A DNA stretch of 64,000 bases, from contig NZ_AP025506.1 in NCBI RefSeq assembly GCF_024347595.1, positions 682,001 to 746,000 of the forward strand, read 5' to 3'. The notes below the pieces were generated by a model that was not told the origin of the DNA, did not search any database, and saw only the letters and a program-made list of their open reading frames with translations. A program made the translations under genes and the position numbers. Shown piece by piece: positions 2,928-37,444 of this stretch (the first letter of the stretch is position 1; each line of letters opens with the position of its first letter). The DNA comes from Vibrio pomeroyi. GTDB lineage: Bacteria; Pseudomonadota; Gammaproteobacteria; Enterobacterales; Vibrionaceae.

Positions 2928-3294
2928 TGGTGGAGCTGGCGGGAGTTGAACCCGCGTCCAAAAATCATTCATCATTGGTACTACATGCTTAGTCGATCTT
3001 TAATTTCACCAGCAACCTGCGAACCGACACGCTAGTTAAAGGCTAACCTGAATTATAATTCGCGCTTTTCCTCTCAGGTGGGAGAAGCCACGCTAGCTAG
3101 TTTGGGTTTGATCTCTTATTGGTCCCCGTCTTACGAGCGGAAGCTAGGGTAAGAGAGCTCTGAGCAGGTTATTAAGCTGCTAGTGCGTAGTTTTCGTCGT
3201 TTGCGACTATTTTTTTGCGGCTTTTTACGTGGCCAACCGCCCCACGGCATGCACCTCAGACTTCAAAATTCCTGTCGAATCCTAAATCAGCCCC
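2928..3294 (-). ncRNA. ssrA: Transfer-messenger RNA (tmRNA)
   Basis: On the minus strand the RNA starts GGGGCTGATTTAGGATTCGA at 3294 and ends with a T-arm (GGTTCAACTCCCGCC) and encoded CCA at 2928-2930, the alanyl-tRNA-like halves of tmRNA. The tag reading frame at 3172-3204 encodes ANDENYALAA followed by TAA, identical to the E. coli tag. With SmpB it rescues stalled ribosomes and marks the nascent chain for ClpXP. The 3' end of ssrA is a common island integration site (it carries VPI-1 in V. cholerae), but no integrase or duplicated 3' end is seen next to it here. Confidence 0.97.
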
Positions 3295-36333: not shown

Positions 36334-37026
36334 TTATTGTTGGCGTGGGTTGATGGTGGTTACGGCTTCGTCGAAGCGACCATAAGTCCCTGTCGCAAGG
36401 TCAGCAGCTTCGTTCGCTGGTACACCTTGGTTAATCGCCTTCATCATTTTGCCGAGGTTGAGATATTCGTAGCCAATCACTTCGCTGTTATCGTCAAGCG
36501 CAAGTTTGGTCACGTAACCTTCTGCAAGCTCTAGGTAACGAACGCCTTTCGCTGAGGTTGAATAGCTGGTACCGACTTGGCTGCGCTGTGTTTGACCTAA
36601 GTCTTCCAATGCTGCGCCGATCTCTAGGCCACCTTCAGAGAAAGCAGACTGAGTTCGACCGTAAACAAACTGTAGGAAGATTTCGCGCATTGCTACGTTG
36701 ATAGCGTCACATACTAAGTCAGTATTGAGCGCTTCTAGAATGGTTTTTCCGGTGAGGATTTCGGCTGCCATCGCGGCAGATTGTGTCATGCCTGAACAAC
36801 CAATGGTTTCGATTAATGCTTCTTCGATGATGCCGTTTTTTACGTTAAGAGTCAGTTTTGCAGCACCTTGTTGTGGTGCACAAGTGCCAACACCATGGCT
36901 TAAGCCAGAAATAGCGATGACATCTTTTGGGCTAACCATTGCGCCTTCAACTGGAATTGGAGCTGAATTGTGAAGATCACCCCTTTGAATAGGGCACATT
37001 GATTGAATTTCTGAAGAGTAGTGCAT
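36334..37026 (-). CDS. NifU/IscU-like iron-sulfur cluster assembly scaffold protein
   Basis: 230 residues. Scaffold-like features: Cys11 (MCPIQRG), Cys49 (GVGTCAPQ) and Cys77 in ETIGCSGMTQSAAMAAEILTGKT, the last strongly like the IscU GCS...LTGK block. The C-terminal half (about 120-230) is not IscU-like and contains RSQVGTSYSTSAKG. It is the constant partner of GGGtGRT proteins. No cysteine desulfurase or ferredoxin is adjacent, unlike isc/suf operons, so it likely serves a dedicated target rather than general cluster assembly. First gene of the operon; its start codon is next to a switch-like RNA structure (37029-37300). Confidence 0.82.
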   Translation of the reverse strand: MHYSSEIQSMCPIQRGDLHNSAPIPVEGAMVSPKDVIAISGLSHGVGTCAPQQGAAKLTLNVKNGIIEEALIETIGCSGMTQSAAMAAEILTGKTILEALNTDLVCDAINVAMREIFLQFVYGRTQSAFSEGGLEIGAALEDLGQTQRSQVGTSYSTSAKGVRYLELAEGYVTKLALDDNSEVIGYEYLNLGKMMKAINQGVPANEAADLATGTYGRFDEAVTTINPRQQ

Positions 37027-37028
37027 AA

Positions 37029-37220
37029 TGTTTTCTCACTTATAGAGCCATTTAAGACCTAGGGCGTTGAGAAAACAGGACGTGTTGGAAGAGGTGCGGC
37101 TAATTCACTACAGATCTTGAGTATCGATAATCCAAAGGTGTCATGGAGCTTGGTCTTACTAGACTAAGTCCATTTCAAAATGGAGGAATAGCGATACGTC
37201 CAACAGTATTACCTGTTTTC
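37029..37220 (-). promoter_or_regulatory. Second structured leader domain with a ribosome-binding-site switch (candidate new riboswitch)
   Basis: Read on the minus strand. Closing stem GAAAACAGG/CCTGTTTTC (37220-37212 with 37079-37071, perfect 9 bp); inside it TGTTGGA/TCCAACA (37205-37199 with 37089-37083, perfect) and GTATCG/CGATAC (37197-37192 with 37126-37121, perfect), enclosing two hairpins (37170-37183, 37149-37168). The 3' strand of the closing stem also forms a perfect 10-bp helix TGTTTTCTCA/TGAGAAAACA (37077-37068 with 37038-37029) that covers the ribosome-binding region right before the ATG at 37026. The two pairings exclude each other. No known family was matched with confidence. 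Confidence 0.65.
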
Positions 37221-37224
37221 GATT

Positions 37225-37300
37225 CTGTAGGAGTCATTAGCACTGTTCGGAAAGAACGGGCGGTTGAAGCAAAAGCTTAGGTGGAACCCCATCACCTGAT
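37225..37300 (-). promoter_or_regulatory. Fluoride riboswitch (crcB motif)
   Basis: On the minus strand: stem AGGTG/CACCT with loop ATGGGGTTC, an optional hairpin AAGC-TTTT-GCTT, then AACCGCCC, a variable stem (GTTC/GAAC), and GCTAATGACTCCTAC. This is the crcB order GGnGATGG...TTC-CC, AACCGCC, CTGATGnCTCCTAC. The pseudoknot also forms: GGGGT (37290-37286) with ACTCC (37234-37230), one G-U. It lies about 200 bases before the NifU-like gene. Neither downstream gene is a fluoride exporter. Confidence 0.85.
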
Positions 37301-37392
37301 GGCTATAGATTAGATCTTTATCACACTTTTGCGCAAGCGAATGTTTAGAGCGATTTCGACTATAAACAAGCTTCATTATATTTCGATAAGTA

Positions 37393-37444
37393 TAAAAAAA
37401 CGCCAATAACGAACTCTGATTAGAGGCGTTATTGACGTTTTTTA
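37393..37444. terminator. Terminator of yebG, symmetrical
   Basis: AACGCCAATAACG/CGTTATTGACGTT with one mismatch; minus-strand exit TTTTTTTATA. It separates yebG from the riboswitch-led operon. Confidence 0.85.

Follow-up and report, generated by a model that had tools for sequence, protein, structure and literature searches.

A translational fluoride riboswitch, that of Pseudomonas syringae eriC, was reportedly described by Baker et al. in 2012; this switch shares with the locus described here a fluoride aptamer acting on access to the ribosome binding site, but its target is a fluoride exporter. According to one account (PMC11077080), the expression platform of the fluoride riboswitches studied so far invades the 3′ strand of the pseudoknot, and fluoride blocks this invasion through the linchpin pair A40-U48. 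Weinberg et al. 2010 (PMC2864571) give as targets of the crcB motif, in their main text, mutS, the transport of K+ or Cl-, and formate hydrogen lyase; NifU has no occurrence in that text. The leader analysed here belongs to an operon for a NifU-like and a GGGtGRT family protein in the window, by which we mean the whole 64,000-nucleotide stretch of Vibrio pomeroyi DNA under analysis. It resembles the fluoride family RF01734 in that its aptamer matches the whole model and stands 5′ of an operon, and it resembles the Bacillus cereus crcB switch in a platform predicted to compete for the 3′ strand of the aptamer, as described in PMC11077080. It differs from RF01734 in its target, the NifU-like/GGGtGRT operon, and in its output, which is predicted to be translational and to run through a relay of three helices (P_A, P_B and P_C) rather than through a terminator.

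A fluoride aptamer adjoining the structured leader

The preliminary description had proposed the minus strand between 37029 and 37220 as a candidate undescribed riboswitch, had noted, without claiming membership, a vague likeness of some runs to the molybdenum cofactor motif, and had called for a scan against Rfam, including the Moco and lysine models. A cmscan analysis of the 64-kb window found the fluoride riboswitch family RF01734 at 37305-37221, with 47.8 bits against a gathering threshold of 34 (E 3.8e-10) over model positions 1-64. The match lies on the same strand as the operon and in its predicted 5′ leader (aptamer end 37221, ATG 37026), followed by a platform that, as judged from sequence and structure prediction, competes for the 3′ strand of the aptamer. 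Its 85 bases directly abut the 5′ side of the structured domain, and the aptamer core GGTGATGG begins at 37296. Neither Moco RF01055 nor lysine RF00168 gave a match at E <= 10 in 36980-37400 or in 37020-37220, nor did any other credible Rfam family in these two regions even at that level, and the likeness to the Moco motif was limited to short runs. A plasmid search with the leader gave no match. By its covariance-model match the sensor is a known riboswitch class, fluoride RF01734, and the window RNA would be expected to bind fluoride. This sensor adjoins 37029-37220 but lies outside it, and the domain appears to be the output half of a riboswitch and not a new class; the confident match abutting the domain, a result that the preliminary description had itself named as refuting, together with an interior that is not conserved, speaks against the claim of an undescribed riboswitch.

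A genome-wide scan with stricter filters, in which 25 of 612 candidates were scored, listed 37305-37221 as the sole fluoride-family match of this genome at E <= 0.001. A block like GTGTGAtaaaGATCTA, at 37325-37309 and so immediately 5′ of the aptamer, by eye looks conserved in many relatives; it is possibly a promoter or a regulator site, and received no call in the sigma-70 scan. Elsewhere, the window carries a tmRNA gene (RF00023, 256.9 bits) at 2928-3294 of the minus strand.

Competing helices of the leader and their covariation

Coordinates of the features of the leader and operon in the window, listed in the direction of transcription
Feature	Position	Strand	Remarks
Fluoride riboswitch aptamer RF01734, sensor domain	37305-37221	minus	cmscan 47.8 bits, full model 1-64
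P_A 5′ strand CTACAGA	37230-37224	minus	3′ tail of the aptamer; holds the position mapped to linchpin U48 (37229)
P_B 5′ strand GAAAACAGG, closing stem (predicted ON)	37220-37212	minus
P_D local hairpin AACAG/CTGTT	37217-37202	minus	MFE fold, positions by eye; would take the P_B 5′ strand when OFF
P_E 5′ strand TGTTGGA	37205-37199	minus	7 bp with 37089-37083 inside P_B (predicted ON)
Variable middle hairpin, spacer	37198-37120	minus	holds the 6-bp stem GTATCG 37197-37192 / CGATAC 37126-37121
P_A 3′ strand TCTGTAG	37114-37108	minus	would invade the aptamer tail (OFF); identical in 19/19 long-type leaders compared
P_E 3′ strand TCCAACA	37089-37083	minus
P_B 3′ strand CCTGTTTTC	37079-37071	minus	overlaps the P_C 5′ strand
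P_C 5′ strand TGTTTTCTCA, putative anti-Shine-Dalgarno	37077-37068	minus
P_C loop, variable spacer	37067-37039	minus	14-95 nt in 7 divergent leaders
P_C 3′ strand TGAGAAAACA, covers the ribosome binding site	37038-37029	minus
NifU-like protein, first gene of operon	37026-36334	minus	PF01592 NifU_N 23.9 bits, cut-off 22
GGGtGRT family protein, second gene	36310-35321	minus	PF14057 561.8 bits

The nested stems of 9, 7 and 6 bp and the helix of 10 bp that had been described before were all recovered at their positions on the minus strand. The 10-bp helix (P_C) does adjoin the start codon, ATG at 37026, at a distance of two bases and not of three as first given. P_C and the 9-bp closing stem (P_B) share 37077-37071 and so cannot form together, as had been pointed out. 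Overlooked in the preliminary description were the aptamer directly 5′ and a third competing helix, P_A, formed by 37230-37224 and 37114-37108. Since the strands follow each other in the crossing order 5′ A, 5′ B, 3′ A, 3′ B, P_A and P_B are mutually exclusive unless knotted. The 201-nt region had a predicted energy of -52.5 kcal/mol (z = -3.49), and none of 200 dinucleotide shuffles was equally stable. P_C dominated the predicted fold of the full leader (0.95), and P_B appeared when 37220-37071 was folded alone. By eye, the alignment contained a stem resembling P_E in long-type leaders.

For comparison, 196 genomes including the window's own were searched, of which 56 encoded the GGGtGRT family PF14057, and the DNA 5′ of the NifU-like gene was examined in these 56 and at six loci from public genomes. 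The 56 genomes contributed 49 fluoride leaders and the public ones six, 55 in total; among the seven genomes without a usable leader, six had no motif and in one (L027) the leader was cut by the end of a contig. Clustering at 85% identity, gaps counted, left 33 clusters. P_A beat dinucleotide shuffles (p <= 0.05) in 29 of the 33, the exceptions being L016, L017, L018 and L062. P_B did so in 26/33 (exceptions L016, L017, L020, L026, L070, L072 and L074), as did P_C (26/33; exceptions L016, L017, L018, L050, L056, L063 and L074). By eye, L016-L018 follow a similar plan in other letters, such as GCAACAG/CTGTTGC in L017. The leader shared by L020 and L097 has a P_A of just 4 bp and a different P_B candidate, and because of this short P_A the three-helix plan is not evident there.

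The covariation analysis drew on the 45 of 55 leaders to which its motif could be fitted, with 29 distinct rows; outside it were L016, L017, L018, L020, L022, L046, L062, L071, L074 and L097. In P_A, 89.3% of the cells were paired, a percentage biased upwards because its register was picked as the best-pairing one, and both sides changed in 4 of 9 pairs. The corresponding figures were 91.2% and 4 of 11 pairs for P_B and 93.8% and 3 of 10 pairs for P_C, with the alignment of these two helices anchored on sequence. When the partner strand was slid along, the best pairing reached was 45.2% (P_A), 56.1% (P_B) and 70.3% (P_C). Against a shuffle control that takes no account of the relatedness of the rows, covariation scores were 0.314 for P_A (shuffled 0.115 ± 0.018), 0.185 for P_B (0.112 ± 0.013) and 0.204 for P_C (0.142 ± 0.016), values reached in each case by 0 of 500 shuffles. 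The two strands of P_B changed together from GG/CC to AG/CT, GC/GC and GTG/CAC. Counts of doubly changed pairs were no better than those of shuffles for any of the three helices (169/500 for P_A, 55/500 for P_B and 399/500 for P_C). The same was found for the number of pair types in P_B (152/500) and P_C (292/500); that of P_A was matched by 1 of 500 shuffles. On the evidence of the aligned leaders, P_A, P_B and P_C all covary. The covariation that the preliminary description had sought in its stems is borne out for the closing stem and the sequestering helix.

Predicted switching of the platform and alternative explanations

By counting along the consensus, we take the linchpin U48 to be position 37229; because this lies within the 5′ strand of P_A, P_A would be the invading helix. 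In the mechanism that we propose, strand 37114-37108 would invade the 3′ tail of the aptamer when fluoride is lacking and form P_A, the 5′ strand of P_B would then stay in the local hairpin P_D and, with P_B open, the anti-Shine-Dalgarno strand 37077-37068 would pair with the ribosome binding site as P_C, leaving translation off. When fluoride is present, the tail would be locked in the aptamer and P_A blocked, so that P_B could close the domain and take up the anti-Shine-Dalgarno strand, freeing the ribosome binding site and allowing translation. From sequence comparison and modelled folds, we consider it highly likely that 37220-37029 (minus strand) is a fluoride riboswitch expression platform acting on translation of the NifU-like/GGGtGRT genes. 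Fluoride probably turns on translation of this iron-sulfur-like operon, and we infer the same direction of control in the cell. Along with the covariation of the three helices, this agrees with the earlier idea of a switch read out on translation that is on when the closing stem has formed.

The bound state was mimicked in silico by forbidding the pseudoknot loop and the tail to pair. With this lock, 16 of the 33 clusters gained more than 0.2 in predicted accessibility of the ribosome binding site and none lost as much; the mean change was +0.25, the lowest -0.14 (L017), and 17 clusters had no predicted rise above 0.2. With 198 shuffled platforms the same lock gave 16 rises and 27 falls of more than 0.2 and a mean of -0.016. 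The accessibility of L066 went from 0.01 to 0.74. That of the window RNA went only from 0.01 to 0.07, the change of +0.07 lying within the range of its shuffles (+0.05 ± 0.09), and the full-length RNA with its tail locked still had P_C at 0.85 against 0.12 for P_B at equilibrium. Because the window RNA barely switches at equilibrium, the order of folding must matter there. In growing window transcripts P_A reached 0.93 at 195-219 nt with the tail free, and P_B reached 1.00 at 233-263 nt with the tail locked, before the ribosome site was complete. With the tail free P_B was also preferred at 233-267 nt (0.88-0.98), so P_A must persist kinetically. These predictions suggest that the switch, if it works in the window sequence, depends on the order in which the transcript folds as it is made.

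The dominance of P_C in the window RNA at equilibrium, whether the tail is locked or free, also fits a constitutive or temperature-sensitive sequestering hairpin in a clade whose aptamer has lost fluoride binding. In the same direction point the score of the aptamer, 47.8 bits in the window and up to 63 bits in other clades, and its sequence (37296-37221), which in the window's clade departs from the Rfam consensus by having GCUAAUGA in place of GCUGAUGA. We regard this explanation as unlikely: the strands of P_A and P_B, useless under a constitutive P_C, keep an identity of 0.95-1.00 across 19 long-type leaders, and GCTAATGA and GCTGATGA both occur, alternating, among the leaders of close relatives, so that GCUAAUGA for GCUGAUGA seems tolerated. 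Fluoride might instead act through transcription termination, given that well-studied fluoride riboswitches use intrinsic terminators, as stated in PMC11077080 and PMC2864571. This is likewise unlikely here, since the switched helix P_C covers the ribosome binding site and is followed by TTATG with no U run. No minus-strand terminator-like site was reported between 36900 and 37800 by a simple scan, which also missed a hairpin with a T-run seen by eye after yebG (about 37434-37394). Rho-dependent effects may arise as a secondary consequence of blocked translation.

The size of the domain, about 190 nt and thus larger than a platform needs, and a fold better than that of its shuffles (z -3.49) would suit a tandem arrangement in which the domain is itself an undescribed aptamer, the second after that for fluoride. 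Conservation among the 19 long-type leaders is, however, mostly limited to the switching strands, those of P_A, P_B and P_C being 0.91-1.00 identical. In seven divergent leaders no conserved, covarying core was found beyond these strands: the middle hairpin has an identity of 20% and varies in length from 27 to 79 nt, and the loop of P_C has an identity of 0.14 over lengths of 14-95 nt. In twelve other leaders GGxGATG and ATG are 153-172 nt apart, about 100 nt less than the 270 nt of the window, and no credible Rfam match lies inside 37020-37220. Because the middle of the domain is so variable, and in view of the Rfam scan, we rejected a second aptamer within it as highly improbable, and we keep to the reading of the whole domain as the expression platform of the adjoining fluoride aptamer.

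The operon under predicted control and the distribution of its leader

By eye, the GGGtGRT gene of the window starts at an ATG after GAGGAA; the listed open reading frame has a longer TTG start. About 240 bases past this gene, on the same strand, lies a gene for a MarC family membrane protein (PF01914, 34439-35080, minus). Among 118 genomes of the genus, the window's own included, GGGtGRT was present in 47, and all 47 had the fluoride leader before the operon. In 46 it stood just 5′ of the operon on the same contig; in the fragmented assembly G141 the leader and the start of the NifU-like gene were on another contig. Fluoride matches above the cut-off were found in 0 of the 62 genus genomes with CrcB (PF02537) and without GGGtGRT, three of which had weaker ones, and in 8 of the 9 with neither. 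In these eight (L150-L157) an open frame of 448-472 aa came after the fluoride aptamer; the three frames that were scanned all proved to be ClC channels (PF00654). By eye, the platforms of L150, L155 and L156 look unlike that of the window. The window's genome has its own CrcB gene at another place on this contig, and no fluoride match was listed next to that gene.

One genome (G135) has a second fluoride leader, L158 (C1:783000-786000), in which P_A and P_C can be recognised by eye. It precedes a 96-aa frame that resembles the N-terminus of the NifU-like protein (no Pfam match) and then a CrcB gene, and may be a leader of the NifU operon that was transferred to an exporter gene. Sub-threshold fluoride matches in G031 and G113 and the second one in G137 were counted as chance because they lie within an open reading frame, which we take to be a pyrophosphatase.

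Of nine order-level relatives with GGGtGRT, three had the leader and six did not. Among the best 80 of 586 public GGGtGRT loci, six had a fluoride leader (Vibrio, Aliivibrio, two Shewanella, Photobacterium and Motilimonas), and three of the 80 (L090, L129 and L141) have less than 800 bases upstream, too little to show one. These counts led us to reject a general association between the fluoride switch and GGGtGRT across all bacteria. GGGtGRT loci were common in gut anaerobes in the public-genome search. A transcriptome-based iron stimulon table for Bacteroides thetaiotaomicron has the NifU-like/GGGtGRT pair 11- to 12.8-fold down, and that paper's text describes its NifU as downregulated (PMC10434189). 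For Clostridium pasteurianum, a proteome study includes both proteins in its table of iron effects (PMC5395762).

A search of the open literature found no joint report of GGGtGRT with a riboswitch, an earlier listing of the operon being possible; nor was there one of a fluoride riboswitch with NifU among the matches listed by a search that included Vibrio. Fluoride riboswitch and iron-sulfur cluster together returned only PFAS remediation, judged by title. As far as the parts of the literature cited here tell, the NifU-like/GGGtGRT pair is uncharacterised.

Now that the candidate has a sensor of known ligand, the question becomes the function of the operon that it would control, and the fluoride link of the NifU-like/GGGtGRT operon is the interesting part. 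Because above-cut-off matches in the genus are nearly confined to this operon and, where CrcB is lacking, to the front of a ClC-type gene, we tentatively suggest, as one possibility, that the pair is a dedicated fluoride-response system other than an exporter, a new kind of fluoride detoxification or repair with links to iron or iron-sulfur metabolism; a role linking fluoride and iron is a guess. The covarying three-helix platform offers a clear comparative case of a small pseudoknotted aptamer coupled to translation, and the fluoride switch before the operon in Vibrio, Aliivibrio, Shewanella, Photobacterium and Motilimonas gives a direct handle on the function of the operon.
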